Source of the DNA: Jaapia argillacea MUCL 33604
Lineage: Eukaryota; Basidiomycota; Agaricomycetes; Jaapiales; Jaapiaceae
Reading direction: 5' to 3'
Assembly: GCA_000697665.1 (NCBI GenBank)
Contig: KL197715.1
Span: 1,200,706 to 1,264,705, forward strand
DNA length: 64,000 nt
The notes below the pieces were generated by a model. It did not search any database and was not told the origin of the DNA. It worked only from the letters and a program-made list of their open reading frames with translations. How positions within the stretch are numbered: the first letter of the stretch is position 1; every line of letters starts with the position of its first letter. The position numbers and the translations under genes were made by a program. Shown one piece after another: positions 4,794-47,618 of this stretch.

Positions 4794-5185
4794 GTTTATA
4801 GGGTTCTGTTGCAAGGAAGAATTTCTGGAGATAAAGAATGGTGAGCCCCAAGACATAGCAACATCAGATGGAATCGTACAGGGGTTCAAGTAAAGATGTG
4901 TACTGGACTTTGGGAAGGGGAGCGAGTGCAGAACTGTGGAGATTCGGAGATGAGGTCTGCCAGAGGGCATATTAGACAGGCATCTCGTTACCTGAAAAAT
5001 GTCATCACTGTCACCCCACCAACGCCTGAAAACCAGCCTCCCTTGACGACTAGATCTCCTTCTTGTCCTACCGAATCCTGGGGAGCGTCATGGGTATCCT
5101 AAATTCATGGATATCACAGGTGTCTCACCTTTACCGCGAAGATCAGTTTGGTCTCAATCCTATTAGTCCTCTTCCTCACCGCATC
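4794..5185. other. Spacer between two minus-strand genes
   Basis: The spacer may hold an extra 5' exon of the gene at 3960-4793 or the 3' end of the GTPase gene. Splice-like signals occur, but I could not build a convincing extra exon. Confidence 0.35.
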
Positions 5186-6017: not shown

Positions 6018-6167
6018 TGAGGTCGATTCGCTATGGAGGCCAATGAGGGGGACAGCAACAAGTTGGGCTGAATGGGCGGATGCTGGGATGATCGTGAAGA
6101 TGTGCTAATAGGGAGAGGCCAACAGTAGAGAGGTTGTACAACAAGCATGAGACCTTAAGGAGCTCGC

Positions 6168-6655
6168 TGTTATGAGCGTCTTAGCATTTAGTGAAGACAG
6201 CGAGTAAGGCTTGTAAGTCTTTTGGGTACTTCGCTTACTGAGTACTCAGGCTACGATGAGTTGAGGCTGTAGAGGATGACGAACGAGAGCAAACCAGTTG
6301 AAGGGTACAGGCTAAGATGCTGTATTGTTCAAGTGGACAAGCTTAAGGAATACAGGAGGATGAGGGTGCCTTATATACTAGAGTCAGAGAGACAGAATGT
6401 GGTAGAAAGGTATAGAAGGGACTAAGAATAGTGCTTAAGGAAAAGGAGAGAACATCATGGAAACTTAGAGAACGAGGTGGAAAATCGGGGGAGTTGGTAA
6501 CCTGCCCGAGGAGGTGCGGATCGAGAAGCGAAGTTAATAATAGTATGACGCGATATAAATAGAACTGAGCTGAGATAAGACAAGAGCGAGGAAGATAAGA
6601 TGTCCGAGATAAGATAAGATAACAAAAAATGAAATGGGTATACAAAGTCATAACA
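6168..6655 (-). repeat. 3' LTR of retrotransposon 1
   Basis: It is bounded by TGTTA...TAACA and matches 14023-14510 with 20 substitutions and no gaps. Every substitution is C/T or G/A at a CpG site. It lies next to the target duplication CTCGC. Confidence 0.95.
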
Positions 6656-6669
6656 CCACCCCCTCTTCT
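6656..6669 (-). promoter_or_regulatory. Polypurine tract of retrotransposon 1
   Basis: On the minus strand AGAAGAGGGGGTGG directly abuts the 3' LTR. The identical 14-mer occupies the same place in retrotransposon 2. This is the usual plus-strand primer site. Confidence 0.85.
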
Positions 6670-6696
6670 AAGTCCGACATTGTCCCTAATGTCTAA

Positions 6697-7500
6697 CTAC
6701 GTCTGCTCATTTCCCCAGCCATAGTCAGGTCTGGGAGGTTGGAATGGGTTGGGCGAAGGAGGTGGAGGGATGTCCAGTGTATCAGATGGGTTGGGGTCAA
6801 AGACAAAGGGGGGCGAGGGTGTACCAGAGGTTTTGGGGGAGGCGTTTTTAGGGGGGTCAGCGCTCAGGGCGAGATTATTGATGAGTTCGAGGAGGGTGGT
6901 CATGCTGGTTGTGACAGGTGGAGGTGGGGGTGGGTTCTACTCGAATCTGTCAGCAGTCTCGAAGTTCTTGTAGTCGGGGGTATTACCGTGAGTAGAGGGG
7001 TGACTGGGGTTGTTAAGGTCTCGGAGTTGTTCGAGGCGTTCACGAAGGCAGTCAAGGGGGTCCCACCTGGTAGATGGAGTCAGTGATGGGGTTCGCTGAG
7101 TGGCATTTAGGGCAGGCGAGAGGGAGTGGGTTTCAACGAGGATAGGGGTGTGTGGACGAGGTGGTGAGGTGGGGAAATTGGGTGTTCCTGGTGAAGGCGC
7201 TGGTGGAGGAGTGGGTGCAGTCTGCCAGGGACGTAGGATGTCCTCCTCATTATATAGGTTGCTGAGGTGGTATCCCACGTTTCCCTCCGGATCGATGTGA
7301 AAATGGATCTCGTGTACTGCGATCGGTTGATACGTGGCGCGGGTGGTGCTGATTACTAATTGGAGTAATCGGCCATGGATGTGGATGAGGGCTCCGCGGG
7401 TGTAGGTGCAAAGGATGATGAGGAGGTGGACTCCTTCCATCAATACGAGGACGAGACGACAGATGAACTTGAGGATGGTGTCGATCTCGCAGGGTGGCAT
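6697..7500 (-). pseudogene. Third ORF of retrotransposon 1
   Basis: The ORF starts with an ATG at 7500, overlaps the open pol frame and ends with GWGNEQT before the polypurine tract. One internal TAG at 6939-6937 interrupts it after residue 187. The N-terminal 35 residues are hydrophobic (FICRLVLVL, HLLIILCTY), then the protein becomes very rich in Pro, Ser and Thr. No zinc knuckle is present. It occupies the env position but has no recognisable envelope features. It shares no clear similarity with the third ORF of retrotransposon 2, although the two pol genes are close relatives. Function unknown. Confidence 0.6.
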
Positions 7501-10500
7501 GTTGCATTTGGCAGGATGAGGGTGGTCGACTGGATGGTTGGTGGTGCTGCTGGAGTATTCTCTGGGGAATGGATTTTTCCAGTCTAGCCAGGTGTGCCTT
7601 TATTCGTTCCAGGTCTGGACATTTTGACATGTATTCTGGAAGGTCTGGGAGGCTTTCCATGGTGGCACGTCTAGCAGCGATGTCTATCCAGAGCCAGGTC
7701 CATTCTTCTTCAGGTATTTTGAGTAACGCGAAGGCCAGCTTGACTGGTTTGGGGGAATTTGGATGTTTCTGATGGAATGCCTCTACTAATTCCGAGGAGT
7801 TGCAGAGGTTTTTCATATCTTCCCATGGATTTTCTGAGTCTGGGTATCCTTTCCATCATACCAGATATTTGACGGCCTTCTTCCCTTTTCCGGCGTATTT
7901 TGATTTGACGACTTCTTCTACTTCGAATTCTTCTTCTCCAGCGATCAAGTCAGGTACGGGTTGTGGGTAGTTTAAGCTGTGTTCGGTGGTTTCTTTGTAG
8001 GGGGTTAGTAGCCCTGCGTGGAAGACTGGGTGTATTTTCCAGGTCCTGGGTAGTTTGAGACGGTAGGTTCCTGATCCAATTATGGTTTCTATTTCGAAGG
8101 GGCCGTGCCGTTTGGGGGAGAGTTTGGCACTGGGATATTCCGTTTTGACGTTTTTTCCTTCTAGCCAAACTGAATCTCTGACCTTGAAGTTGGGTCCTTT
8201 CGTTCCGTACTTGTCGTGTTGGTTCTTCATTGCTTCGGCTTCTTCCCTTGACTTCTTGAGTTCTTCCAATCGTTGTTCGGCTGCTGGGACATTGGGCGTG
8301 GGTCTAAACGATGGTTTTACTTTTGCTTGGTATCTGTGCATGAGTTTGAAGGGTGTTTTCTTGGTTGCAGAGTGTATGCGCGTATTGTGGAACAGTTTGG
8401 CAGCGAATAGGAGCGAGGGCCAGTTGTTTTGGGCTCGGTTACAATATGCTCAGAGAAATATTTCCAATTCCTGGTTGACTCTCTCTGTGGCTCCGTCGGT
8501 TTCTGGATGGTATCCCGTGCTTAGGGCTGATTTGATGTCTAGTCAGTTGAATATGGTGCAGAGTACTTGGGATGTGAATTGGGGTCCTCAGTCTGATATC
8601 ATTTTGTCTGGCAATCCATACCATCTGAAGGCGCCTTTGATGAGAATCTCTGCTGTTCCATCGGCATCTATGGTTTTGTTGCAGGGCGTAAATATCACTG
8701 TCTTGGTAAAACAGTTGGTGAGGACGTGGATGGTGTCGAAACCGTCTACTTCTGGGATGCCTGTGATGAAATCTTGTGTCACGATCTTGAAAGGTCGTGT
8801 GGGGATTTCCGTTGGGTGTAGTGGTTCTTGCGTTGGATTGTTGTTTGGTTTGATGGATTGGCACGTTGCGCATCCTTCGACGTATTTCTTGACGAATATT
8901 GACATACCAGGCCACCAGTAATCTCGTTGTACAATTTCCAGGGTTTTGTATCTTCCCAGATGTCCCATCAGGGTGGGGTCGTGGCACGATTTTACGACTT
9001 TTCGTCATAGGTCCGTGTTTCTGGGGACGTATATCTTCCCTTGGTAGAGGATCAATCCGTCTTCTAGGTTCCATTCTTCTAATCCTTTAGTGAGCGATCG
9101 TGGTCCTTGTGTGTGGATGGAGTCTAGTGCGGCTGCTACCGATTCGTCCAACTCGTTGTTTCTTTTGATTTCCTTCCTTAGGTCTAAGTCTCCCATTATT
9201 TGTACTTGTTCCTTGGGGTTTGCCATTATTATGTTTCGTATTGCTAGTCGAATGCGTCATGCAACGATGGGGGAGTGTGTTGAGGCAGTCCCCCTTCTGG
9301 TGATGTTGATTCGTTTGGCGAAAAGTTGGGGGGTAAGTAGGATTCTATCCTGATTGTTGGTATCCACCCCCTCCTTATGGTCTTGTTGTCTCGAAAGACC
9401 ATCGGATTTGTTAGATTTTCCTGGTTTATGCACTAATTTGAGATCGAAGCGTGTAAGGAATTGGGCCCATTGTGCTTGGTGGCGACTCAGCTTCTGGGCG
9501 CTCCAAAAGTATTCCAAATTTTGTGGTCCGTATAGATCTTAATCTGGTGGGTGCATCCTTCCAAGTAATGTCGCCATGCTTCTAATGCGCGTATGATCGC
9601 GAGTAGTTCCTTGTTGTAGATGTCGTAATTTCGTTCTGCTTCTGATAGTGACTTTGACAGGTATGCCACAGGGTGCCATTTCCCGTCACCTTCCAGCTGG
9701 GTCAGGACGGCGCCCGTGGCATAATTGGATGCATTGCATTCGATTTGGAACAGTTTTGTTGTGTCTGGAGTTACCAGTGTTGGGGATGATGTGAAGGACA
9801 TTTTTAGTTTGTCGAAGGCATCTTGGCATCCAATGGTCCATTCCCATTCATGTTCTTTTCTGGTTAGTTCGAATAGGGGTTTGGCGATCTTTGAGAAGTT
9901 GCGGATGAATTGTCGGTAGAAATTGCAGAATCCCAAGAAGGACTGAACTTCCTTGACTTTCTTGGGTTCCAGCCATTCCATAATCCTGGCGACTTTAATT
10001 GGATCCATTTCTACCAGATTATGCAAGACCACTAGTCTGAGGTACTCGATTTTGGGTACTTCGAACGTGCATTTTTCCGGTTTTAGGAATAGGTCGTTCT
10101 CCTCCAGGATTCTCATTACTCGGTGGAGTATTCTGCGGTGTTCCGTCATGTCTTGCGTGAATATCAGGATGTCATCTAGGTAGACGATGACGTGTCCTTC
10201 ATCGATTAATTCCTTGAATAGTTCGTTCATCATTGTCTGAAAGGTTGCTGGCGAATTGGTGAGTCCGAAGAACATTACTCGTGGTTTGTACAATCCGCGA
10301 TTGGTCTTGAAGGCTGCCTTCCACTCGTCTCCCTCCTTGATTCATACGTTGTTATACCCCCATCTAGATCCAGTTTTGAGTAGATCTTGGCCCCTTTTAG
10401 TTTGTCGATGAGTTCAGAGATGAGTGGTATCGGGTAGGTGTTCTTGATGGTCATTGAATTCAAGTATCGATAATCCTGTGTTGGTCGGAGCTTTCTGTCC

Positions 10501-11623
10501 TTCTTCTTTACAAAGAAGAAGGGGGAGGATAATTGGGATTTCGACGGTTGGATGTACTTCTTCTCCAATTGCTCTTCTAGGAAGGCATCGAGTTCCTTCT
10601 GTTCGGTTGGTGACAGGGGGTACGTTTTGCAGTTGATGGGTTTCCATCCTTCTTTTAGTTCTATAGCGTGATCCCATGGACATTTTATTGGGAAGCGTTC
10701 TGATGCCTTTTTCTCGAAGACCTTCTTGTATTTCCAGTATTCCATTGGTACCATCTCTTCTAGAGTTTTTTCTTTTTGCCCCTGGGCAGCTCTCTCTGCT
10801 AGTTCGATGGATTTGTTTCTGTGGGCCCTTGCCACAATGATAGTGGAGTGTTTGTCTTCTTCCCAGTCTTTGTCGTCTTTGGGTAATGGGTCTCCCATCA
10901 GGGCCTGGTGTACTTTGATTCCTTGGTAAGTCCATGGTCGTATTTCCTGATCTGGATCTGTAGTCTCGTCTTTGGTCCATAATTTGATCGGAAGTTTTCC
11001 TATTTTCCATGAGTTACGTTTCTTGTCTTTGCTTCCTTTGATCTCGACGGGTTCTGTTTCGTGATTCAGATCTTTCGGAGCTGGTTTGGCTTGTGCGGTG
11101 ATAGGCCCTTCTTGAATCTGGCATGTGTTGGGGCAGCGGCTGAGATTAATCATGTAGGATTGCCAATCTATCTTGGGGTTGTGTTCTAGTAACCAGTCGC
11201 TTCCTAGGATGACGTTTTCTTTCCCTATATTCGTTATGTAGAATCAATTGTTTTCCGTGTGGGTTCCTTCTTCTTGTCTGTGAATTCGGACTCCTAGTTC
11301 GACGTAGTAGCGGATTTCTCCATTTGCGTTTTCAGAATCGTTGATGTTGTGAACTGGGATTCAGGTTGGTAACTTCTGAAGGTTTATTTGTTTTTTGACA
11401 GCGTACTCATAGCTGATTAAGTTCCTGGTGGCCCTGCTGTCGATCAGGGCTTCGGTGGTGGCGGTTTGATTCTTTCCGATGAGTTCGATCTGGATACGTA
11501 GGGACAGGGTCCCCGAATTCTTTAGAGTGGAAATAGATAGTAGTTTGGGGGTATCCAAGACTTGGTATCAATTAAATGAATCTCGTTTAACCTTCTCATT
11601 TGCCACAGGCGGAAGGTGGTTTA
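7250..11623 (-). pseudogene. pol of retrotransposon 1 (PR-RT-RH-IN-chromodomain)
   Basis: The polyprotein is reached by a -1 shift at the gag stop. The retropepsin block reads DSRATRNLIS near 11425, so the active-site Gly is replaced by Arg. RT motifs are RPTQDYRYLN, FFGLTNSPATF and YLDD (near 10180). RNase H has ECNASNYATGAVLTQ and YTDHK. Integrase has an HHCC finger ending GCATCQ, the catalytic stretch TQDFITGI, then ISD followed by a stop where Arg is expected, and NQELEIFL. The chromodomain is near 7930-7800 (YAGKGKKAVKYLV, WKGYPDSE). Frame breaks occur near 10355 (one base lost after SKLDL) and 9515 (in YTDHKN). In-frame TGA codons stand where retrotransposon 2 has Arg, Gln or Trp, for example YLV*WKGYP. 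Confidence 0.9.
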
Positions 11624-13990
11624 AAAACCCAATTTAGCAAACTCTTCTTTCACTGTTTGTACCACTTCCCATCTGTTATCCTCCACCGTGTCTTGTAAGA
11701 GATTCCTGATCTCTTTTCCCACATCCCTTGGTTCTTCTTCCTTTTCTTCCCCTACTTCAACAACTCTTGCTTGGAAGTGCCTTTTGAAGGGTTTCTTTTG
11801 TTTGTCCGGGCAGTCGTGGGAGAAGTGTCCAGGCTTCCTGCAGTAGAAACATGCATTAGTGTCCCTTAACTTCTTGCGTTCTTGATCGTCTAGTCGTCTA
11901 AACTGTCCAGTGCGTCGATTCCTTCCAAAGCGGGCAGCATCTATGTCCATGGGGACGCCTTCCAATTGGTAGGGGCATTGATAGTGGGGGGTGGGGTCAT
12001 CAGGGTATATAGGTTTGGCCAATCGGAATCTCCAGGATTTTTCGGCTGCAGCTTGTTGTCGTAAGAGGTCTTCCTGAATAGTGGTGGTTTTGAAATTGGC
12101 GTAGTTAGAAGGCGGAGTGGGGAGATGAATGATGGTGTGAAGGATATCCCAATTGAGTCCCTTTTTGAAGTATTCAAGTAGGGCCGCGTCGTTAAACTCA
12201 GTGTAGTGGGCTAGGTCCTCAAATTTGGCGACGTAGTCATCAACGGAGGATCTACCTTGTTGTAAATTCTGAATCTGCATCCTTGCGGTTCCTCCTTTGT
12301 CTAACTCTTTGAACGCGTCTTTGACGCGAGTGATAAATTCGTTCCAGGAATCTTTGCTTCCGTCTGCCTTGGTATAGGGGCTGGTGGGTTTTTCATAATC
12401 TTCGATATATTTCATTGCCCAAGAACCGGCGGTACCTTCCTTCATGAAGGAGAGGGTGTAGGCGATTTTGGCCAATTCATTTTTGAAGTCGTCTGGATTG
12501 GCTCTGATGTTAAGTTTAACTTCTTGAACGAATTTGTCAGTCCGTCGGTGATCGCCAGTGAAGACTGATAGTGGGGCGAGTTTGGGTCCCTTGTTGGTAG
12601 CGCCAGACATGACGTTGACAGGGGGTCCGGGTGGTGGCGGTGGTGGAGGAGGTGGAGGTGGTGGTGGAACAGAAGGGATCTGGGGTTGGGGATTTGGGGG
12701 ATATATGGGGTAATTAGGTGGGTCGGGGGGAGGTGCGTTGTAGTTGGGGGCTGTTTCTTCAGAATAGGTTTGTTGGGTAGGAGGGTCCTGTGTTGGGGAA
12801 TGTGAACCCTCGGGTTCCTCAGTGATCAGGGTGTTGGTGGGTTGAGTTTCCACTTCTTCCTCGGTGGTTGAGTGGTCATCGTCTGATGTTTCTGGGGCTT
12901 GGTAAGATGCTCTAGAAGCAGTTCTAGACACAGCCTCTCGTAATTCCTGTAGTCCTCGATTGCTGCCAACAGATTGTCTGCTGGGTTGTCACGATGGTGG
13001 TCTGGGTCGAGGGGTTCCTCCTCTGGAGACTCTTTGATAGGGGTTAGACCACAGGGGTGAAGTGGATGATGATGCGACGAGTGGGGCCAGGGAGGCGATC
13101 AGGGGTGATACTGGGCTGGTCGGGGTTTGGACGACTGTGGGAGGGTTTGGTAATAGTTCTGGGTGTACTTGAAGGTATTCATCGAGGGAGGGAAGGTTGG
13201 GGTTAAAGGGGAACTTGGTGGGTGTTTCGAAGAGGTTGAACTTGCCGTTTTTGTCAAGGACGAAGGGTTGTCAGTTGTAGTAGAAGAGACTGGTGGTTTG
13301 GTCAAAACAGATTTTCGATTTGACGTTGTTGGTGTATCTGCCGTATTTGAGTTCCGCAAAGGTAGGTGCGTGTGTTTTTTCTGGAAGGTGGTGTCGATTG
13401 TACTGGGAGATGAAATTGGGATCAATTTTGGCGAGTGTGTGAAGGCAGAGGGACTAATTCGATGTGTTGCTGGTGGAGTAGTTCCACTTCTTCCACTTGT
13501 CGACGTATTCTTTTGATGATGTTATTGATTCATGCGTGGAGGGCAACGAGGTCGTTGGAAACAATGTTGAGTTGGTGGTATAGTTGATCGAGTTCTTGGG
13601 TAACGAGCAGGAACACACTTAGAAAGGTGTTGATGTGGATCCTGACTTCTGCCAGCTCTGGGATCTGCTGATGGCCTGAAGTAGGGTTAAGATACATGCG
13701 AGTTTGGAGTGTTTTCGGACTCGTCATTTCTTGGGGGCTGGTGCATGGTATTGGGTGGCAACGGGGGATAGTGCTGTGGGGGTTTCTAGTTGCGGTCTAT
13801 CGATGGGGTAAAGGGCGTGTGTGGTTCGTCGTTTGACGAATACAAGCTGTTTATTGTCGGAACGTTGTACTAGGAACAGGGGTTGAATGTCAATGGTGTT
13901 GACGATGTTAGGGCGGGGTTCGTTGGTTATGACAACGTGGTATGGTTCCAGGGTGGAGGGGATCGCAGATCCTGACTGCATCGGTGTCAT
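11621..13990 (-). pseudogene. gag of retrotransposon 1
   Basis: The ATG at 13990 lies 20 bases after the primer-binding site and opens a frame that begins MTPMQSGSAI. Homology with retrotransposon 2 shows that the N-terminal region, including a coiled-coil-like stretch (TQELDQLYHQL), is split over frames by small indels. The C-terminal 436 codons (12931-11621) are open: an acidic and Pro-rich linker with a poly-Pro run, a capsid-like domain (APLSVFTGDHRRTDKFVQEV, GWA-type MKYIEDYEKP), and one CCHC knuckle, CFYCRKPGHFSHDC. A TGA lies just upstream of 12931, at about 12989. Gag packages the genomic RNA. Confidence 0.8.
11624..11630 (-). promoter_or_regulatory. Candidate -1 frameshift heptamer, gag/pol of retrotransposon 1
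   Basis: The gag frame ends TTG GGT TTT TAA. G GGT TTT fits the X XXY YYZ slippery pattern and stands immediately before the stop. Slipping back one base opens the pol frame. The site is identical in retrotransposon 2. Confidence 0.5.
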
Positions 13991-14009
13991 AGGGTGAGTG
14001 GGGTGTAGA

Positions 14010-14020
14010 AAGCTTGTCCA
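14010..14020 (-). promoter_or_regulatory. Self-priming PBS of retrotransposon 1
   Basis: TGGACAAGCTT lies 2 bases inside the 5' LTR. It is the exact 11-nt reverse complement of AAGCTTGTCCA in the LTR (14199-14189), which starts 33 bases downstream of the TATA box, where the transcript should begin. Confidence 0.7.
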
Positions 14021-14022
14021 AG

Positions 14023-14510
14023 TGTTACGAGCGTCTTAGCGTTTAGCGAAGACAGTGAGTAAGGCTTGTAAGTCTTTTGGGTACTTCGCTTACTGAGTAC
14101 TCAGGCTACAACGAGTTGAGGCTGTAGAGGATGACGAATGAGAGCAAACCAGTTGAAGGGTACAGGCTAAGATGCTGTATTGTTCAAGTGGACAAGCTTA
14201 AGGAATACAGGAGGATGAGGGTGCCTTATATACTAGAGTCAGAGAGACAGAATGTGGTAGAAAGGTATAGAAGGGACTAAGAATAGTGCTTAAGGAAAAG
14301 GAGAGAACATCATGGAAACTTAGAGAACAAGGTGGAAAATCGGGGGAGTCAGTAACCTGCCTGAGGAGGTGCAGATTGAGAAGCGAAGTTAATAATAGTA
14401 TGATGTGATATAAATAGAACTGAGCCGAGATAAGACAAGAGCGAGGAAGATAAGATGTCTGAGATAAGATAAGATAACAAAAAATGAAACAGGTATACGA
14501 AGTCATAACA
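14023..14510 (-). repeat. 5' LTR of retrotransposon 1
   Basis: The LTR carries a TATATAA box (14232-14226) and the predicted transcript start around 14199. It differs from the 3' LTR only by CpG-site transitions. It is followed by the target duplication CTCGC at 14511-14515. Confidence 0.95.
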
Positions 14511-14515
14511 CTCGC

Positions 14516-14807
14516 TACCTGAGCCGTGTTGGCTAATTCAGAACCTTAGAGGGTGTGGACTCAGCAAAGTGGAGGTCTGTTCACCCAAAGTTAGACCATC
14601 ATAATCCTCGTGTTGGGAATGAGATATCATTTCATTGCCTGTCTCTTGATGCGTGAAGCTTGCATCGTGGCCAGCACGATGGAGGCAGAGTTGTTTGTCC
14701 TATGTCAAATTGGGTAGGCAGATTTAGCGCGCGCACGATACGTAATGCATGGCCATTGCACCAACTTAGAGTTGGAGACTTACCAGAACTATCGTTTGAA
14801 GCTTTCA
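14516..14807. other. Spacer between retrotransposon 1 and the palindrome
   Basis: No gene, repeat or RNA was recognised in this stretch. Confidence 0.4.
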
Positions 14808-15678
14808 CTGCAGACGGGGGTTGATAAAGGGCTATGCCATATCACTCCCATATCAATTCCCTGATGTAACATATTCAAGGTCCCATTGGAGACCGTTGTA
14901 GCCAAATCCGTAGTTAAATTTTGTGATTTCGTACAGGTCCCTGCCATATCTGTAAGACAAAAATTTAAATAAGTTGAAAACTATGTCGTTTGACTGCAGG
15001 GTCGGCCTGTACTGATGGACAAAAGGTAAAATACAGGAGGGCATACAGCCAGGCTACATCTTTTAGAAATGTCCCATCACCTTACGCGGAAGCATTTTTT
15101 GTACATGTTGGGTCACCATATTCGGGTTTTGTTGTAAGAAAAACATGGGGAACTACTTAAAATACAGCTTGTAAATACGACTGTCAGCCATAATAACATG
15201 CCAAATTTTGAAAATGACTACGTGACATATGCTTGGGATGAGTCAGGTGGGATTATATGTCACATGGACATTTCCATAATATGGTGCATGATTATGTCAG
15301 ATGGTCGTATTCATAAGCTGTATTTTAAGTAGTTCCCCATGTTTTTCTTACGACAAAACCCGAATATGGTGACCCAACATGTACAAAAAATGCTTCTGCG
15401 TAAGGTGATGGGACATTTCTAAAAGATGTAGCCCGGCTGTATGCCCTCCTGTATTTTACCTTTTGTCCATCAGTACAGGCCAACCCCACAGTCAAATGAC
15501 ATAGTTTTTGACTTATTTAAATTTTTGTCTTACAGATATGGCAGGGACCTGTACGAAATCACAAAATTTAACTACAGATTTGGCTATGACGGTCTCCCAA
15601 TGGGACCCTGAATATGTTACATCAGGGAATTGATATGGGAGCAATATGGCGTGGCCCTTTATTGACCCCTGTCTGCAG
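14808..15678. repeat. 871-bp near-perfect palindrome (foldback element)
   Basis: Two arms of about 423 bp are inverted copies. CTGCAG bounds both outer ends. The arms meet at GTGACATAT (15222-15230) and ATATGTCAC (15255-15263), leaving a 24-base loop. The arms differ at scattered sites, mostly single substitutions and short gaps. The flanks carry a 13-base imperfect direct repeat (TTTGAAGCTTTCA / TTTGAGGCATTCA), which could be an old target duplication. No convincing coding content was found. The type fits a foldback element or inverted duplication. Confidence 0.85.
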
Positions 15679-15846
15679 TATTTGAGGCATTCATGTTCGA
15701 GTTTGAGTGCGATCCTCCAGATCAATAAGGCTCTGTTGTTAATGACTGTGCCAATAGAAGAGTGAATGAGACCTAACGACTCACAGATCGATGGCCAGGA
15801 TTCAATTCAATCCTGCGGCAGCCACGAGCCATAACCACAGTTTCCG

Positions 15847-16504
15847 GATAATGCTATTGGGAAAACCCAGTTGCTGCTGAAAACCCGAGAAACCGCTAAG
15901 TTGATGAAACCTGACGAAAGTCAGGGAGGGTTGTTGATCCCCGAGTCCAGGGATTTCAGACAGCGTCAAGCCCAAGGGTGCCTTGGTTCTAGTTGGCGAA
16001 GATTGATGCCAGGATTTCCTGAGAAGCGCCAACCACATGAGCTCGATCACAACGACGCAAACATCAGTGAGCACAGTGGCAAAGTAGGTGTGCTCATTGT
16101 CATCGATGACAGCAGCAGTTTCTTTGCTGAAAGTTGATAAATCAGAAATCTGATTCACTATTTGATAACTAAATGCACACATATGTCACTTTATCACTAG
16201 TGTACAATTTTTTTAAGTCAATTTGTCTTTGATTTTTAATGTCGTTGATAACGACGAGCATGCCTACTTTGCTGCTGTGCTCACTGACGTTCACGTTGTT
16301 GTGATCGAGCTCATGTGGTTGGCGCTTCTCGGGAAATCCTGGCATCAATCTTCGCCAACTAGAACCAAGGCACCCTCAGGCTTGACACTGTCCGAAATCC
16401 CTGGACTCAGGGATCAACAACCCTCCCTGACTTTCATCAGGTTTCGTCAACTTAGTGGTTTCTCGGGTTTTCAGCAACAACTGGGGTTTCCCAATAGCAT
16501 TATC
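15847..16504. mobile_element. MITE-like element A with long inverted arms
   Basis: The element starts GATAATGCTATTGGG and ends CCCAATAGCATTATC. The arms, about 290 and 255 bases, stay recognisably inverted (for example CAGGGAGGGTTGTTGATC and its complement). It belongs to the same family as element B. A weak 9-bp direct repeat flanks it (CAGTTTCCG / CAGTTTTCA). Confidence 0.75.
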
Positions 16505-16579
16505 TGCAGTTTTCATAACCGATACTCAACTTACTGAAATAAGGTTTTGATGTTCATGGTACAAGACACAGGCTCATGT

Positions 16580-17420
16580 ATTATGTCTGGAGGTCTGGCA
16601 AAAAATTCAAGTTTTTCAAGTTGAGAGTGGGATTTGAACTCTCAACATCAGATAATGCTATTGAGAAACCCCCCTTTCTGCTGAAAACCCGGGTTTAGTG
16701 AGAAACCATCAAGTTGACAAAAGCTGGCGAAAGTTAGGGAGGGTTGTTGATCCCTGAGTCCAGGGATTTTCGGGTGGCATCAAGCCCGAGGGTGCCTGGT
16801 ACTAGCTGAGGAAGATTGATATCAGGATTGGCTGAGAAGTGCCATCGGTGTGAGCTTGATGGTAACGTCCCAAATGTTGGTTGGTGTGGTGGTGAAATAG
16901 TCACGCCCGTCGTTGTAGACAGCGGTGGTGACTTATTTGCCGAAAATCGAGAAATTGGAAAAAAAAATCCTGAAATGCCATAAATAAAATGACTCATATG
17001 TCAATTTATCACTCATTGTATAATTGTTGAATGAATTTGTTCAATTTTCGATGTTATTGACAATGACAAGCGCGACCATTTTACCATTGCACCAGCAGGT
17101 GTTCACACTGTTCCCACCAGGTTTGTGTGGTTGGCGCTTCTCAGCCAATCCCGCCATCAATCTTCCTCAGTTAGAACCAGGCACCCTTAGGCTTGATGCT
17201 GCCTGAAAATCCCTGGACTTGGGGATCAACAACCCTCCCTAACTTTCGCCAGCTTTTGTCAACTTGACGGTTTCTCGCTAAACCTGGGTTTTCAGCAGAA
17301 AGGGGGGTTTCCCAATAGCATTATCCCTCAACATCATGAGGACTTCATGGTTGAAAACTCGAACACAGGCATAACCCATTCAGCCATTCTGACTTATTTG
17401 AGTCAGCCCTCTGTGTTATA
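16580..17420 (-). repeat. tRNA-derived SINE-like relic split by MITE B
   Basis: On the minus strand a box A-like TGGCTGAATGG (17386-17376) and a box B-like GTTCAAATCCC (16639-16629) are in tRNA order once the MITE is removed. The spacing and an extra arm between them resemble a Ser/Leu-type tRNA. The downstream sequence is AT-rich. It could be a SINE or a tRNA pseudogene. The MITE target duplication falls between the anticodon-like arm and the T-arm. Confidence 0.5.
16651..17326. mobile_element. MITE-like element B with long inverted arms and 10-bp TSD
   Basis: The ends are GATAATGCTATTG and CAATAGCATTATCC. The arms continue as an imperfect inverted repeat around a central region near 16980-17060. 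A perfect 10-bp duplication, CTCAACATCA, flanks it at 16641-16650 and 17327-17336. Long TIRs with 9-10-bp duplications are typical of Mutator-like MITEs, so this is the favoured class. There is no coding content. Confidence 0.8.
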
Positions 17421-17783
17421 GGATGTGAATTGACTCCACATGACCACTCCCAACTCCTCCACCCCAATATCCCCTCTTCCTCAGTTATGTATATCTCAGA
17501 TTTTATCATAGCTCACCCATCCTGAATAGAACCCCCTATTTCTATCCACCTTTTGTGTGAAATTAGACTCCATTTCTCCACCCTCCTCACTTTTCCCTCT
17601 CCACCTCAGAATCTCCCTCTTCCCCCTTCTCTGAAATATTATATTCCTGTCTCCTCTAGTCCATATTCTACAATAGTTAACCTTCCCAGATTTTGCCTAC
17701 CCTTTTTCCTACCCTTCAATCTCCCTCTCTCTGTCTACCTGAACCTCTCTCCCATACCCTCTTCCATCTCTCCTCCATCCCTC
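17421..17783. other. Pyrimidine-rich spacer, target of retrotransposon 2
   Basis: The spacer is CT-rich without a recognisable gene. The same CT-rich character resumes after the retrotransposon at 26776, consistent with one interrupted tract. Confidence 0.5.
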
Positions 17784-17788
17784 ATTTC

Positions 17789-18275
17789 TGTTACGACTTT
17801 GCGTGTCCGTTTCATTTTTTGTTATCTTATCTTATCTTGGACATCTTATCTCATCTTATCGCGTTCTCTCTTGGACCCGTTCTATTTATACCCCATTGTA
17901 CTATTATTAACTCGACCATTCCATTTATACCCCATTTGGCAGGCTACCGATTCTATGGACGTTCCACCTCCTTCCCTACCTTTCCATTATGTTCTCTTAC
18001 ATTCCCTGGACACTATTATTAGCACCTTCGATACCATTCTACTACGTTCTCCCTTCCTGGCCCTAGTATATAAGGCGCCCTCGCCCTCCTGTACCCCTTA
18101 AGCTTGTCCACTTGAACAATACAGCATCTTAGCCTGTACCCTTCAACTGGTTCACTCTCGTTCGTCATCCTCTACAGCCTCAACTCGTTGTAGCCTGAGT
18201 ACTCGGTAAGCAAAGTATCCAAAGGACTTACGAGTCTGACTCGCTACCTTTGCTAACGCTAAGGCGCTCGTAACA
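17789..18275 (+). repeat. 5' LTR of retrotransposon 2
   Basis: Ends are TGTTA...TAACA. It carries the TATA box and predicted transcript start, and differs from 26284-26770 only by CpG transitions. The target duplication ATTTC abuts it. Confidence 0.95.
18067..18110 (+). promoter_or_regulatory. LTR promoter: TATA box and predicted transcript 5' end
   Basis: TATATAA occupies 18067-18073. The 11-mer AAGCTTGTCCA at 18100-18110 begins 33 bases downstream, the usual TATA-to-start distance. The same spacing holds in retrotransposon 1. The start is inferred from spacing and from complementarity to the PBS. Confidence 0.65.
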
Positions 18276-18277
18276 CT

Positions 18278-18288
18278 TGGACAAGCTT
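18278..18288 (+). promoter_or_regulatory. Self-priming PBS of retrotransposon 2
   Basis: TGGACAAGCTT begins 2 bases after the LTR. It pairs perfectly with AAGCTTGTCCA at the predicted RNA 5' end; pairing ends on both sides after exactly 11 bases. Tf1 of fission yeast is known to self-prime with an 11-nt 5' end in this way. Confidence 0.7.
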
Positions 18289-18304
18289 TCTACACCCTAC
18301 TCAC

Positions 18305-20678
18305 CCTACAACACCAACACAGTCAGGATCTGCGACCTTCCCCACCCTGGAACCATATCGCGTTGTCATAACCAACGAACCCCGCCCCAGCATCATCGAC
18401 ACCATCGACATTTGACCCCTGTTCCTAGTACAACACTCCAACAATAAACAGCTTGCATTCGTCAAGCGACGAGCCACACACACCCTTTACCCTGTCGGTA
18501 GACCACAACTAGAAACCCCTGCAGCATTATCCCCCGTTGCCACCCAAAACTATGCACCACCCTCCGAGAAACGACGAGTCAGAAAACACTCCAAGCTCGC
18601 ACATATCTTAGCCATACTTCAGGCCATTAACGGATCACAAAACTGGCAGAAGTCAGGATCCACATCGACGCCTTTCTAAACGTGTTTTTGCTTGTCACCC
18701 AAGAACTCGATCAATTATACCACCAACTCAACGTCGTTTCCAACGACCTGATTGCCCTCCGCGCACGAATCAATAACATCATCGAAAGAATATGTCGACA
18801 AGCAGAAGAAGTGGAACTACTCTGTCGACAACACATCGAATTGGTCCCTCCGCCTTCACACATGCGTCAAAATTGATCCCAACTTCGCCTCCCAGTACGA
18901 TCGACACCACCTTCCAAAAGGTATGCACGCACCTACCTTTGCGGAACTCAAATATGGCAGATACACCAACAACGTCAAATCGAAAATCTGTTTCGACCAG
19001 ACCACCAGTCTCTTCTACTACAACCGACAACCCTTCGTCCTTGACGAAAACGGCAAATTCAACCTCTTCAAGACACCTACCAAATTCCCCTTTAACCCCG
19101 ACCTCCCCTCCCTCAACGAATACCTTCGGATACACCCAGAATTATTACCAAACCCCCCCCACAGTCACTCAAACCCCAACCAGCCCAGTATCACCTCCGA
19201 TCGCCTCCCCCACCCCGCTTGTTGTGTCATCATCCACTCAACCCCCGTGGTATAACCCCTATCAAAGAGTCTCCGGAGGAGGAACCCCTCGACCCAAACC
19301 CCCATTGCGGCAACCAAGCAGACAATCTGTTGGCAGCAATCGAGGGCTACAAGAATTACGAGAAGCTGTGTCTAGAACTGCTTCTAGAACATCTTATCGA
19401 GCCCCAGAAGCATCAGACGACGACCACCCCACCACTGAAGAAGAAGCAGAAACTCGACCCGCCAACACCCCCATCACCGAAGAACCCGAGGATTCACACT
19501 CCCCAACACAGAACCCTCCTACCCAGCAAACCGATCCTGAAGAAGCAGCTCCCATCCACAACGCACCTGCCCCCGACCCACCTAGCTACCCCGTATACAC
19601 CCCAAATCCCCAACCCCAGATCTCTTCTGTTCCACCACCACATCCACCACCTCCACCACCCCCACCCAGACCCCCCGCTATCAACGTCATGTCTGGCACT
19701 AACAGCAAGGGACCCAAACTCGCCCCGCCATTGGTCTTCACCAGCAATCGCCGACAAACTGATAAATTCGTTCAAGAAGTTAAACTTAACATCGGAGCCA
19801 ATCCAGACGACTTTAAAAACGAATGGGCTAAGATCACCTACACCCTCTCCTTCATGAAGGAAGGCACCGCTGGGTCCTGGGCAATGAAATATATCGAAGA
19901 TTACGAAAAACCCGCCGGCCCCTATACCAAAGCAGACGGAAGCAAGGACTCGTGGGATGAATTTATCACTCGCGTCAAGGACGTGTTCAAGGAGCTAGAC
20001 AAAGGAGGAACCGCAAGGATGCAGATTCAGAATTTACAACAACGAAGATCCTCCGTCGACGACTATGTCGCCAAATTCGAGGACTTGGCCCGCTACACCA
20101 AGTTTAACGACGCCGCCCTACTCAAGTACTTCAAGAAAGGGCTCAATTGGGACATCCTATGTGCTATCATCCACCTTCCTACCCCGCCATCTAACTACAC
20201 CAACTTCAAAGCCGCCGCCATTCAGGAAGACCTTCTCCGACAACAAGCCGCAGCCGAGAAATCCTGGAGATTTCGATTGGCCAAACCTATATACCCCAAC
20301 GACCCCACTCCCTGCTACCAACGCCCCTACCAATCGGAAGGCATCCCCATGGACATAGACGCCGCCCGCTTCGGAAGGAACCGATGCACCGGACAGTTTA
20401 GACGACTGGACAATCAAGAACACAAGAAGTTAAGAGACACTAATGCATGCTTCTACTGCAGAAAGCCCAGACACTTCTCGTGGGACTGCCCAGACAAACG
20501 AAGGAAACCCTTCAAAAAGCGTTTCCACGCAAGAGTCGTTGAAGTAGGAGAAGAAAAGGAAGAGGAACCAAGGGACGTGGGAAAGGAGATCAGGAGTCTC
20601 CTACAAGACACAGCAGAGGATAACAGATGGGAAGTGGTACAGACAGTGAAAGAAGAGTTTGCTAAATTGGGTTTTTAA
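18305..20678 (+). pseudogene. gag of retrotransposon 2
   Basis: Alignment with retrotransposon 1 places the Gag start near 18305, but the ATG is lost there. The N-terminal third runs through different frames: LEPYRVVITNEPRP, then a coiled-coil-like ELDQLYHQL block (18682-18873), then a conserved block FAELKYGRY (about 18935-18961). A C-run near 19150 marks another frame break. From about 19160 to 20678 the frame is open: linker, poly-Pro, capsid-like region and one zinc knuckle, CFYCRKPRHFSWDC (Gly replaced by Arg). The frame open from 18792 is probably out of phase over its first ~120 codons. Confidence 0.75.
20669..20675 (+). promoter_or_regulatory. Candidate -1 frameshift heptamer, gag/pol of retrotransposon 2
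   Basis: G GGT TTT stands directly before the gag TAA (20676-20678) in gag phase. The pol frame is -1 relative to gag and is open across this point (GF then LNHLPPVV). The site is conserved in retrotransposon 1. Confidence 0.5.
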
Positions 20679-23600
20679 ATCACCTTCCGCCTGTGGTGAA
20701 CGAGAAGGTTAAACGAGATTCCTTTAATCGATACCAAGTCTTGGATACCCCTGAATCGTTATCTATTTCTACCTTAAAGAATTCAGGAACACCGTCCTTA
20801 CGTATCCAAATCAAACTTATTGGAAGGAATCGAACCGCCACCACTGAAGCCCTAGTCGACAGTGGGGCCACCAGAAATTTAATCAGTTATGAATACGCCG
20901 TCAAGAAACAAATGAACCTCCAGAAACTACCAACCCAAATCCCTGTCCATAACGTCGATGACTCAGAAAACGCGAACAGAGAGATTCGCTACTACGTCAA
21001 ATTAGGAGTCCGAATTCATGGGCAGGAAGAAGGAACCCATACGGAAAACAACTGATTCTATGTCACCAACATAGGAAAAGAGTACGTCATTCTTGGAAGC
21101 GATTGGTTACTGGAGCACAACCCCAAAATAGACTGGCAAACTTACACGCTCAATCTCAGTCGATGCCCAGACACGTGCCAGATTCAACAAGGACCCATCT
21201 CTGCACGAGCCAAACCAGTCCCAAAAGTCCAAACCCACAACACAGAACCTATCATAATCAAGAAAGCCAGAACCAAGATATGGAAGCCCAAGAAGCGAGG
21301 AATACTCCCCTCAGAATTGTGAACTGCAGACGAAACCACGAATCCAGATCAGGAAATACGACCCTGGACGTATCAAGGCATCAAGGTACACCGCGCCCTG
21401 ATGGGAAATCCACTACCTGAAGATGACGAAGAACCTAATGAAAGCGAGCATCCTATCGTCATTACAGCAAGGGCACACAGGAATAAATCCATCGAACTAG
21501 CGGAAAAAGCCGCCCAGGGGCAAAGGGAGAAGACATTGGAAGACATGGTACCGAGGGAATATTGGAGATACAAGAGTCTTCGAAAAGAAGGCATCGGAAT
21601 GCTTCCCGATAAAACGCCCCTGGGACCACGCAATAGAATTAAAAGAAGGATGGAAGCCAATCAACTGTAAAACCTACCCCCTATCCCCTACAGAACAAAA
21701 GGAACTCAACGCCTTCCTGGAGGAACAACTAGAAAAGAAGTACATCAGACCGTCGAAGTCTCAACTATCATCACCATTCTTCTTCATAAAAAAGAAGGAC
21801 GGTAAACTTCGCCCAACACAGGACTACCGGTATCTCAATTTGATGACGGTCAAAAACACCTACCCGATACCCCTCATTTTGGAACTTATTGACAAACTGA
21901 AAGGAGCCAAGATCTACTCCAAGTTGGACCTACGATGGGGATATAATAACGTGAGGATCAAAGAAGGGGATGAATGGAAAGCAGCCTTCAAAACCAACCA
22001 AGGACTGTACGAACCACGAGTTATGTTCTTCGGATTGACCAACTCACCAGCAACCTTCCAAACAATGATGAACGAACTGTTCAAGGATCTAATCGACGAA
22101 GGACATGTCATAGTATATTTGGACGACATCCTCATCTTCACCTGGGACATAACAAAACATCGACAGGTACTCCATCAAGTAATGAAGATTCTAGAAGAAA
22201 ACAACCTCTTCCTGAAACCAGAAAAATGCATGTTTGAAGTCCCCAAAATCGAATATCTAGGACTGATGGTCTCCCACAACCTGGTGGAAATGGACCCAGT
22301 CAAAGTCGCCAGGATTATGGAATGGCCCGAACCCAAAAGAGTCAAAGAAGTTCAGTCCTTCCTGGGGTTTTGCAACTTCTACAGGCAATTCATTCGCGAC
22401 TTCTCAAAAATAGCCAAACCGCTATTCAAGTTGACACAAAAGGAGCACGAATGGGATTGGACCACCAGGTGCCAGGAAGCATTTGACAGACTCAAAGCAG
22501 CCTTCACATCGTCCCCAACACTGGTAACACCGGATACCACGAAACCATTTCAGATCGAATGCAATGCATCTGACTACGCAACCGGCGCCGTCCTCACACA
22601 GTTGGAAGACGATGGGAAGTGGCACCCGGTAGCATATTTATCGAAATCCCTATCGGACGCAGAATGAAATTACGACATCTATGACAAGGAACTACTCGCG
22701 ATCATTCGCTGCTTGGAAGCATGGTGACACTATCTAGAAGGATGTACCCACCAAATCAAGATCTACACCGACCACAAGAATCTGGAGTACTTCTGAAGCG
22801 CCCAGAAACTAAGCCGACGACAGGCAAGATGGGCCCAGTTCCTAATGCAGTTCGACTTCAAACTAATACACAAACCGGGGAAAGCAAACAAGTCTGACAG
22901 TCTTTCGAGACGACAAGACCATAAGGAAGGGGTGGATACCGACAATCAGGACAGAATACTATTAGGACTGCAACTTTTCACTAAGCAGATCAATATCACA
23001 GGATGAGGAACTGCTTTGACACACTCCCCCATCATTGCACGACAAATTCGACTAGCAGTACAAAGTGCAATAACGACAAACCCCAAAGAGCACGTACAGA
23101 TAATAGGAGATTTGAATCTGAAAGAAGAAATCAAGAAGAATAACAAACTGGACAATTCAGTGGCAATGGCACTAGGCTCCATTCACACACAAGGACCACA
23201 ATCCCTTCCCAAAGGACTAGAAGAATGGAACCTAGAAGATGGATTAATACTTTACTGAGGAAAGATATACGTACCAAAAGACACAGACCTGTGAAGAAAG
23301 GTCCTAAAATCATGCCATGACCCCACCCTAATGGGACATCCCAGGAGATATAAAACCCTTGAGATCGTACAACGAGACTATTGGTGGCCCAGTATGTCGA
23401 TATTTGTCAAAAACTACGTCGAAGGATGTGCAACATGCCAATCCATCAAACCAAACAACAACCCGACACAAGAACCACTACACCCAACAGAAATCCCAAC
23501 ACGACCCTTTGAGATTGTAACTCAAGATTTTATTATGGGTATCCTGGAAGTAGACGGCTTCGATGCCATCCACGTCCTCACCGACCGATTCACCAAAACC

Positions 23601-24764
23601 GTAATCTTCACACCCTGCAGCAAGACCATAGACACCGATGGGACAGCAGAGATCCTCATCAAAGGGGCCTTCAGACAATATGGATTACCAGACAAAGTGA
23701 TATCAGATAGAGGACCCCAATTCACATCCCAAGTCCTTCGCGCCATATTTAACCAACTCAACATTAAATCAGCCCTAAGCACGGGATACCACCCAGAAAC
23801 CAATGGAGCCACGGAAAGAGTCAACCAGGAATTGGAAATATTCCTCCAGGCATATTGTAACCAAGCTCAAAACAATTGGCCCTCGCTCCTATTCGCCACC
23901 GAACTATCCCACAATACATGCATACACTCCGCAACCAAGAAAACACCCTTCAAACTCATGCACGGATACCAAGCAAAGGTAAAACCATCGTTTAGACCCA
24001 CGCCCAACATCTCAGCAGCTGAACAACAGCTGGAAGAACTCAAGAAGTCGAGAGAAGAAGCTGAAGCATGCCTTAAATTGGCAGCCGAAGCAATGAAGAA
24101 CCAACACGACAAGTACAGAATGAAAGGACCCAACTTCAAGGTTGGAGATTCAGTTTGGCTAGAAGGAAAAAACGTCAAAACAGAATATCCCAGTGCCAAA
24201 CTTTCTCCCAAACGACACAGCCCTTTCGAAATAGAAACCGTAATCGGATCTGGAACCTACCGACTCAAACTACCCAGGACCTGGAAAATACACCCAGTCT
24301 TCCATGTGGGACTACTAACTCCCTACAAAGAAACTACCAAACACGGCTTAAACTACCCCCGACCGGTACCTGACTTGATCACTGGAGAAGAAGAATTCAA
24401 AGTGGAGGAAGTCATCAAATCAAAATACGCTGGAAAAGGGAAAAAGGCCGTTAAATATCTGGTACGATGGAAGGGATACCCAGACTCAGAAAACACGTGG
24501 GAAGACATGAAAAACCTCCGCAACTCATCAGAGTTAGTAGAGGTGTTCCATCAGAAACATCCAAAATCCCCCAAACCAGTCAAACTGGCCTTCGCATTAC
24601 TCAAAATACCTGAGGAAGAGTGGACCCGACTCTGGATAGACATCGCAGCTAGACGCGCAGCAATGGAAAGTCTCCTGAATCTTCCAGAATATATGACAAA
24701 AAACCCCGACCCCACACGTATAAAGGCCCACCTTGCGAAACTACAAAGATCCATTCCTCAGTAA
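20676..24764 (+). pseudogene. pol of retrotransposon 2 (PR-RT-RH-IN-chromodomain)
   Basis: Retropepsin motifs are VDSGATRNLIS (about 20854) and ILGSDWL. RT motifs are RPTQDYRYLN, SKLDLRWGYNNV, FFGLTNSPATFQ and YLDD (about 22117). RNase H has ECNASDYATGAVLTQ. Integrase is in the open stretch 23331-24764: GCATCQ completes the HHCC finger, the DDE residues are in TQDFIMGI, SDRGPQFTSQ and NQELEIFL. The chromodomain VEEVIKSKYAGKGKKAVKYL plus RWKGYPDSENTWE lies near 24400-24520 and would steer integration to heterochromatin. Two bases are missing near 21573. TGA codons occur at ENN*FY, AE*NYD, AW*HYL, EYF*SAQ, ITG*GTA, LILY*GK and TDL*RK. Confidence 0.9.
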
Positions 24765-24831
24765 ATACTCCAGCAGCCTAAAACACCCCTCTCGCCTAAC
24801 AAGCACCCCCAACCTTCTCCATATCACCAAA

Positions 24832-26271
24832 ATGATCACCGCTGCCATCCTCCACACCCTCACCGTCGTCATCACCCCCAGCATCCACCTCCCCTCGCCC
24901 CCGACCTTCTACATCACTGCCAATCACAAAGTGATGATGCACGAACACATCGAGTACTGCGAGCACCGGCTCGTGTCTAACATACTCACCCAGGCCAAGT
25001 TGGTCAACACCAAGAACTGGATTCTCGAGTGGAAGCGTGACCAATCTGAGGAAATATGGGTGTGCATGGGACACCCTTGCGCCCTCGACTTTTTCGAACT
25101 CGACAACCCTGTCCAGAAACAAATCCGCCTGGTGCTCCCTGTTCCCATCATCACCATCAACCAACCCCCCATCCTCGCCCCTCTCGATTACACTGAAACC
25201 AACCCATATAGCCTAGGTGCAATCATCCCCCGCCTTCGTTCCAATGGGATGATATACAAAGTCCAGGACATGTTCGGCCTGATCCGTCCTCCGACAAACG
25301 CCACCCTGCGCAGCCCATCTTACCACCCCGAGACACCCAACCACTCCCCCCACCCATCCAATTACCAGTCACTCAACGCTATGGACGTTGATTGGGACCA
25401 TCATGCTGATCACGCATCCCCCCCACCAGTCCCCAGCAACGTCTCATCATCCAACGACTCCCTCCCCTCACTACAGCCTTTACCATCCGATACGTCATCT
25501 GAACCAATCAACGACGCCCCACCTCCTCCATCCCCGTCCTCCATGGGCGAATGCCCCTCCAATCGCATCCGCTACTCCACGCTGAGCCTAACCAGCAAAT
25601 GGAAACCTGAAGGAGGAGAACACAAATGGCCCCCCGCCGGCCTGGCCAACTCAGAGGAAGTCTGGCCCAACCCCGTCGATGCCATCGAACAATGGGGATC
25701 CGGCTCCAGGACCTCCTTCCCATCCCCCTCCCCCGTCGATCTCTGGGCCAACTTCCCCCCCCGCTACATCTCCACCGACGATGCGCAATACCACCACAAA
25801 ACCAAGTGCTGGAATTGTCACAAACAGGGACACCTCGCACATTCGTGCCCTGCCCCTCGCCAGCCTCGTAAGAAGCCATCCACTCCCCATCACTCCCCCC
25901 CCACTCATGATGTTCCCAGCCCTATACTCCCGACCCCTCAGCCAATACTCGCGATTTCACCCCTACAACGGCCAACCCCGATCGCAGAACGGGCCATCAA
26001 CAAGGAACTCCGACACTGTGCCTACGTCAAGGAGAACATACGGAAATACAAGCTCGAACTGGACAGCGCTCGGTGGGCCTGGATCCATTGGTTGGAACAA
26101 GGAAAATGTCTCACCATCGCTACAGATCCCACGTCCTCCCCCCTCGCACCACTTTACCCTGACGCCGCTTCATGGCAATGGTTTCTAGACCAACAAGTCT
26201 TCGAAACTAACTGGAGTCATGGTAGGATTGGATGGGGATCAGACGAAGGTTTGGGACAAACCTCGGCTTAG
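24832..26271 (+). CDS. Third ORF of retrotransposon 2, zinc-knuckle protein
   Basis: An intact 479-codon frame follows pol; the ATG at 24832 is the first Met after the pol stop. The first ~140 residues have regular secondary-structure-like composition (EYCEHRLVSNILTQAKLV, WILEWKRDQSEEIWVCMG). Then come a long Pro/Ser/Asp-rich stretch, a CCHC knuckle CWNCHKQGHLAHSC at about residue 326, and a basic/aromatic C-terminus (ENIRKYKLELDSARWAWIHW). It has neither a signal peptide nor transmembrane spans of envelope type. A second nucleic-acid-binding protein in the env position is unusual. It is the only major ORF of this element without a lesion. Function unknown. Confidence 0.7.
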   Translation: MITAAILHTLTVVITPSIHLPSPPTFYITANHKVMMHEHIEYCEHRLVSNILTQAKLVNTKNWILEWKRDQSEEIWVCMGHPCALDFFELDNPVQKQIRLVLPVPIITINQPPILAPLDYTETNPYSLGAIIPRLRSNGMIYKVQDMFGLIRPPTNATLRSPSYHPETPNHSPHPSNYQSLNAMDVDWDHHADHASPPPVPSNVSSSNDSLPSLQPLPSDTSSEPINDAPPPPSPSSMGECPSNRIRYSTLSLTSKWKPEGGEHKWPPAGLANSEEVWPNPVDAIEQWGSGSRTSFPSPSPVDLWANFPPRYISTDDAQYHHKTKCWNCHKQGHLAHSCPAPRQPRKKPSTPHHSPPTHDVPSPILPTPQPILAISPLQRPTPIAERAINKELRHCAYVKENIRKYKLELDSARWAWIHWLEQGKCLTIATDPTSSPLAPLYPDAASWQWFLDQQVFETNWSHGRIGWGSDEGLGQTSA

Positions 26272-26283
26272 AAGAGGGGGTGG
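26270..26283 (+). promoter_or_regulatory. Polypurine tract of retrotransposon 2
   Basis: AGAAGAGGGGGTGG abuts the 3' LTR and is identical to the tract of retrotransposon 1. Confidence 0.85.
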
Positions 26284-26770
26284 TGTTACAACTTTGCATG
26301 TCCGTTTCATTTTTTGTTATCTTATCTTATCTCGGACATCTTATCTCATCTTATTGTGTTCTCTCTCAGACCCGTTCTATTTATACCCTGTTGTACTATT
26401 ATTAACTTGACCATTCCATTTATACCCCATTTGGCAGGCTACCGATTCTATGGATGTTCCACCTCCTTCCCTACCTTTCCATTATGTTCTCTTACATTCC
26501 CTGGACACTATTATTAGCGCCTTCGATACCATTCTACTATGTTCTCCCTTCCTGGCCCTAGTATATAAGGCGCCCTCGCCCTCCTGTACCCCTTAAGCTT
26601 GTCCACTTGAACAATACAGCATCTTAGCCTGTACCCTTCAACTGGTTCGCTCTCGTTCGTCATCCTCTACAGCCTCAACTCGTTGTAGCCTGAGTACTCA
26701 GTAAGCAAAGTATCCAAAGGACTTACGAGTCTGACTCGCTACCTTCGCTAACACTAAGGTGCTCATAACA
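26284..26770 (+). repeat. 3' LTR of retrotransposon 2
   Basis: It is a 487-bp copy of 17789-18275 with 19 CpG transitions and no gaps. The target duplication ATTTC follows at 26771-26775. Confidence 0.95.
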
Positions 26771-26775
26771 ATTTC

Positions 26776-47596: not shown

Positions 47597-47618
47597 GCGT
47601 TCTCGGGAACTACCCAAT

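Follow-up and report, generated by a model that had tools for sequence, protein, structure and literature searches.

Divergence between the LTRs of two Ty3/gypsy retrotransposons of Jaapia argillacea is confined to CpG sites

The two elements and their surroundings

The window, i.e., the whole stretch of 64,000 nucleotides of Jaapia argillacea DNA that was analysed, contains two LTR pairs as detected by BLAST self-comparison (Table 1), both starting with TGTTA, ending with TAACA and flanked by 5-bp target duplications. Since these duplications match on the two sides, being CTCGC for element 1 and ATTTC for element 2, each element represents a single insertion. Judging from their profile matches both belong to the Ty3/gypsy group, and element 2 at least to its chromodomain-bearing members; the predicted frames of element 2 follow the gypsy order gag, reverse transcriptase, RNase H, integrase and chromodomain. 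Gag and reverse transcriptase are present also in element 1, and no integrase frame was found among the frames scanned in it; its reverse-transcriptase match (9634-10401), which overlaps the corresponding frame of Table 1, is interrupted by one in-frame TGA. Copia matches also turned up.

Table 1. Parts of the two elements, in coordinates of the window
Feature	Position	Strand	Remarks
Element 1 target-site duplication, left	6163..6167		CTCGC
Element 1 3' LTR	6168..6655	minus	488 bp, TGTTA...TAACA, differs from partner at 20; element on minus strand
Element 1 partial reverse transcriptase/RNase H frame	9490..10341	minus	PF00078, PF17919
Element 1 gag frame with zinc knuckle	11624..12988	minus	PF03732, PF00098
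Element 1 5' LTR	14023..14510	minus	partner of 6168..6655
Element 1 target-site duplication, right	14511..14515		CTCGC
Element 2 target-site duplication, left	17784..17788		ATTTC
Element 2 5' LTR	17789..18275	plus	487 bp, differs from partner at 19
Element 2 gag frame	18777..20675	plus	PF03732
Element 2 reverse transcriptase/RNase H frame	21501..22664	plus	PF00078, PF17919
Element 2 integrase and chromodomain frame	23295..24761	plus	PF17921, PF00665, PF24626, PF00385
Element 2 3' LTR	26284..26770	plus	partner of 17789..18275
Element 2 target-site duplication, right	26771..26775		ATTTC

The CpG content changes along the window; the elements have an observed/expected ratio (o/e) of 0.73 and 0.78, compared with ~0.5-0.7 for the adjoining old repeats and ~0.95 for the part from 30 to 64 kb. 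The flanks at 2000-6000 and 26900-29600 are CpG-poor and match many diverged copies in the genome with 66-93% identity; a leakage of mutation from the elements into these flanks is not supported, the flanks being old dispersed repeats themselves. Diverged direct and inverted repeats (CpG o/e ~0.5) occupy positions 15846-17326 between the elements. Elsewhere the window holds a tRNA gene (47618-47719, minus strand), which is its sole Rfam match at gathering score, and a cluster of diverged paralogues (58356-63845) in which two frames are F-box-like, one with a score short of the curated cut-off.

Differences between the LTRs of the window elements

A base-by-base listing showed that the LTRs of element 1 differ at 20 of 488 bases and those of element 2 at 19 of 487, a 20th BLAST mismatch of element 2 being located one base beyond the LTR. 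All 39 differences are of the CpG type, that is, either a C/T or G/A exchange where one of the two copies still has the CpG, or TG in one copy opposite CA in the other, the latter accounting for four columns (two sites) in element 1 and likewise in element 2; neither transversions nor gaps occur in either pair, all differences being listed. Since CpGs, whether present or lost, contribute ~25% of those G+C positions that are at risk, the probability of obtaining 39 of 39 by chance is ~7e-24. The original prediction, that every LTR difference is C/T or G/A at a CpG site (20/488 and 19/487), is thus confirmed for all 39, and the alignment and dinucleotide tabulation of the LTR pairs that had been proposed as its check gave zero non-CpG differences in both elements. 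Indeed, no non-CpG change is found at the 871 comparable sites of the two elements, 46% and 38% of whose LTR CpGs, respectively, have been lost, values that are middling to high within the range of 18-57% seen over the 12 insertions described below.

Paralogues within the window were used as controls; CpG-type changes represent 37/199 and 39/270 of the differences in the F-box region and 31/119 of those between 20-719 and 38865-39574, fractions that constitute weak controls insofar as these paralogues are old and partly under selection.

Related insertions in the genome

A search of the genome (43.7 Mb, 95 contigs) with the reverse transcriptase of element 2 yielded 106 matches, two of which are the window's own; from the 104 others the 20 regions nearest to element 2 were sampled, and self-comparison gave a usable LTR pair in 16 of them. 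Three regions (L020, L024 and L027) have no LTR pair, and L034 has an unclassified match of 140 bases with 79% identity and 28 mismatches. The main count comprises 12 insertions, namely the two of the window and ten among L016-L033 that are near kin of element 2, and omits L017, L021, L022, L028, L029 and L035, in which the pair is partial, rearranged or lacks a matching target duplication. The target duplications were read by eye and are perfect in 11 of the 12 insertions, L032 being kept with four bases out of five.

These 12 insertions display 199 LTR differences, subdivided into 180 of the CpG type, 15 other transitions and four transversions. When all 19 rows are considered (the two window elements and 16 loci, L022 counting twice), 260 of 303 differences are of the CpG type, along with 24 other transitions and 19 transversions, L028 and L029 alone holding 16 of the 43 non-CpG changes. 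The decay of LTRs by CpG-type changes is thus not peculiar to the window elements. After correction for CpGs that both copies have lost, a CpG site changes at ~125 times the rate of a non-CpG site (91-213 by bootstrap over elements), the ratio being 99 without the window pair and 76 without the correction.

The premise that no mutational force other than deamination at CpG has acted since insertion applies to the two window elements but not generally, 19 of the 160 differences in the ten other insertions being non-CpG, as is most of the divergence between elements (see below). The window pair is poorer in such changes (0/39 vs 19/160, Fisher P 0.028), a difference that carries little weight, the pair having been chosen for precisely this property. 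Over the 12 insertions the non-CpG share is homogeneous (permutation P 0.52), this being a weak test with only 19 non-CpG changes, and CpG loss correlates weakly with non-CpG divergence (rho 0.49, P 0.10), a correlation too weak to tell a steady decay from bursts.

The mean CpG o/e of the 20 sampled element regions is 0.70 (0.48-1.11). Two Ty3/gypsy elements of other families (L036 and L037), picked for their long open frames and hence biased towards intact copies, have a CpG o/e of 1.36, higher than elsewhere in the window, as if not decayed so far; neither gave an LTR pair.

Strand, context and double hits

In the 12 insertions the two strands are equally affected (88 vs 92 changes) and no per-copy heterogeneity of strand is apparent (chi2 24.5, 24 df). 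Neighbouring changes fall on the same strand in 68 of 156 cases compared with 78 in shuffles, so that there is no excess of same-strand neighbours; 98% of the shuffles equal or exceed the observed number, so that any tendency of neighbours is a slight one towards opposite strands. RIP typically leaves strand-biased runs within a copy, and a strand-wise hypermutation is rejected in view of the lack of both strand runs and per-copy bias. The bases at positions -1 and +1 with respect to the CpG have no measurable effect (P 0.32 and 0.53), and a TpCpG preference is likewise rejected. Finally, CpA is rejected as the target; the transitions comprise 180 at CpG, nine at CpA and two at CpT, the CpA rate being 0.8% as opposed to 18% at CpG. 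Within the non-CpG cytosines of the 12 LTR pairs, changes are more frequent at CpA (9/1086 copy-sites) than at CpC and CpT together (6/3021, P 0.006), an excess attributable either to second hits at TpG/CpA or to weak CpA methylation.

CpG sites that are intact, lost in one copy or represented by TG facing CA number 125, 132 and 23, respectively, close to the 120, 141 and 21 predicted by independent loss in the two LTRs. On the other hand, CG facing TA occurs only once, whereas independent mutation of the two Cs would give 16 cases (Poisson P 1.5e-6). On balance this one-hit pattern fits a methylation-dependent decay, because neither TpG nor CpA is any longer a CpG. TA facing TG or CA, found nine times as against 8.4 expected under the same assumption, is indistinguishable from ordinary CpA/TpG changes and gives no support to the one-hit rule.

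Coding regions and divergence between elements

The 106 reverse-transcriptase matches contain 132 TGA, 12 TAA and eight TAG in-frame stops, a predominance of TGA that fits the CpG route because CGA is thereby converted to TGA; in the reverse transcriptase of element 2 there are only four CGA codons compared with eight CAA, six CAG and 11 TGG. Codon positions were compared in 14 equally long reverse-transcriptase stretches, one from element 2 and the others from 13 of the 20 loci. Three close pairs that have no stretch in common show non-CpG differences distributed 16/7/92 over codon positions 1/2/3 and CpG differences distributed 37/33/50 (chi2 37.6, P 7e-9), the latter resembling the spread of the CpG bases of element 2 (30/20/36). 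The non-CpG pattern represents a trace of selection from the time when the lineages were still active, and the CpG pattern is as decay after insertion would give.

A full-length alignment of elements 1 and 2 shows 1618 differences in 8311 aligned sites, with 442 transversions, 309 direct CpG changes and 148 TG/CA changes, so that the divergence between the elements is mostly non-CpG.

Methylation and repair genes of the host

A PF00145 profile search of the genome gave five matches at three loci, all of them partial reading frames of putative activity. One is DNMT5-like, its nearest structure (E 2e-85) being 7r76, an entry deposited as Rad8 that we take to be DNMT5 of Cryptococcus neoformans; the other two are DNMT1-like. 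No RID/Masc1-like gene is present among these three loci, although an exon-by-exon search can miss genes, as was the case with PF03167. The methyltransferase set appears to fit a basidiomycete; PMC12210899 reports both DNMT1 and DNMT5 from each of its 12 Pucciniomycotina genomes.

As to repair, the genome search for a uracil/thymine glycosylase with PF03167 gave no match, and TIGR00628 detected two loci resembling family-1 uracil-DNA glycosylase (C7:518119-518885 and C12:844698-845558), below the curated threshold when taken exon by exon. Glycosylase loss is rejected as the cause of the high rate ratio insofar as, with these two UNG-like loci, an absence of TDG cannot be claimed. HhH-GPD was found at three loci, and the one that was compared with solved structures is closest to endonuclease III.

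Mechanism of the CpG decay

The changes described above arose, very probably, by deamination at CpGs that had been methylated symmetrically in the transposons, and not by RIP proper. After insertion, the Ty3/gypsy elements would be methylated symmetrically at CpG by a host system of the DNMT1/DNMT5 type, and the methylated C would deaminate to T with high chance on either strand, yielding TpG or CpA; as these products would no longer be CpG targets, the decay would mostly end after one hit per site and, other mutations being rarer by about a hundredfold per site, LTRs that were identical at the outset would diverge almost only at former CpGs. The spectrum of the changes, their strand symmetry, the scarcity of double hits, the CpG gradient and the existence of methyltransferase genes are observed, whereas the methylation of the elements and the passive nature of the deamination are inferred. 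The original prediction of CpG methylation and deamination is supported by the mutational spectrum and by its symmetry insofar as it does not imply strict RIP, with which neither the equivalence of the strands nor the near absence of CpA changes agrees. Some findings are to be counted against this explanation. The CpG mutation excess in mammals is about tenfold, and a ratio near 125 exceeds it; furthermore, the CpA excess, the near-expected frequency of TA facing TG or CA and the weak correlation of CpG loss with non-CpG divergence weigh on the same side.

A rather unlikely alternative to passive decay is a RID-independent basidiomycete genome defence by which methylated CpGs of repeated DNA are mutated on either strand, for instance through T:G mismatches that stay unrepaired in silenced transposons; the ~100-fold CpG excess would then be due to this defence. 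An active, repeat-triggered CpG mutator, i.e., a basidiomycete counterpart of RIP acting on duplicated DNA in the sexual cycle, is unlikely; it would have CpG in repeats as its target and the window elements, having lost 38-46% of their CpGs without any other change, look as if hit by a burst, but neither strand runs nor a per-copy strand bias is seen (a bias that many rounds could blur), a RID/Masc1-like gene is absent among the three methyltransferase loci found, and the CpG/non-CpG share is homogeneous as if produced by two steady clocks, within the power of that weak test. Such a mutator could also appeal to the CpG hypermutation likened to RIP in the accounts of Rhizoctonia solani AG8 (PMC4014442) and Tricholoma matsutake (PMC6980582).

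That the differences are artefacts of the assembly, methylated CpG being rendered as TpG or CpA, is very unlikely. Some long-read base callers err at methylated sites, and this known weakness is what speaks for the artefact; the occurrence of a single gap run in the 12 LTR pairs, the span of CpG o/e from 1.36 to 0.48 over 22 element regions and the near absence of CG facing TA speak against it, none of the three being conclusive. A RIP of the Neurospora type or an APOBEC-like deaminase acting on single strands would also cause C to T changes in repeats but is scarcely credible in the face of a CpA rate so far below that of CpG (0.8% vs 18%), of the absence of strand runs and of stops that are mainly TGA rather than TAA or TAG. 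Symmetric methylation followed by deamination thus remains the preferred reading.

Relation to known systems

Transposon decay at CpG has been described in basidiomycetes before, and the value added here is its measurement within single elements. In Amselem et al. 2015 (PMC4352252), a CpG-only signature is described in three basidiomycetes, being very weak in two, along with one Masc2-like gene per basidiomycete and no RID/Masc1, and a deamination of methyl-cytosine following a MIP-similar methylation is proposed. The present case shares with theirs the CpG-only decay of transposons, and of the three methyltransferase loci found here none is RID/Masc1-like. Their reference for each copy is a family consensus or else the copy richest in GC, whereas the comparison of the two LTRs of one insertion removes ancestry and yields a per-site rate ratio. 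The term "MIP-like", used in the original prediction, matches the phrasing of these authors, although the same paper describes known MIP as methylating without mutating.

CpG-biased C to T changes have been reported in other Agaricomycotina, namely Rhizoctonia solani AG8 (PMC4014442) and Heterobasidion parviporum (PMC5870257), where, in the figures given in these reports, ~40% of the C/T changes (SNPs between nuclei or isolates) are at CpG, as compared with 90% of all LTR-pair differences here; CpG-biased changes are mentioned also for Tricholoma matsutake (PMC6980582). The RIP-like TpCpG changes described for gypsy elements of the basidiomycete Microbotryum (PMC5381629) have in common with ours a target containing CpG, but the preference for a 5' T is absent here. 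Neurospora RIP also inactivates repeats by C to T changes; its target is CpA and it depends on RID, whereas here the target is CpG and no RID is seen among the three methyltransferase loci found.

Consequences for LTR dating

The insertion of a retrotransposon is commonly dated by the divergence of its LTRs. With the Kimura distance and 1.05e-9 changes per site per year, a rate borrowed from the LTR dating of Pleurotus (PMC4905642), in the main text of which "CpG" does not appear, the raw ages are 20.4 My for element 1 and 19.3 My for element 2. After masking of CpG no change remains, the 95% upper limits being 3.2 and 3.3 My, respectively, or 1.6 My if both elements are assigned one age. Over the 12 insertions masking lowers the age from 16.7 to 1.8 My, i.e., by a factor of 9.4; the absolute years depend on the borrowed rate, the factor of ~9 does not. 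The contention that LTR dating overestimates the age is borne out by this factor, and that of recent insertions is supported as an upper bound only, with zero non-CpG changes at 871 sites and a middling to high CpG loss. The literature searches aimed at LTR dating with CpG set aside yielded one match, which concerns Citrus, and the dating point is not claimed to be unpublished.

The window elements and their relatives thus offer a clean, quantified instance of a known process, in which raw use of the LTR clock overestimates age ~9-fold over the 12 insertions. Should the same apply to other mushroom-forming fungi, the insertion ages published for them would have to be recalculated with CpG masked; furthermore, LTR pairs allow the mutation driven by methylation to be measured directly in fungi, no crosses being required.
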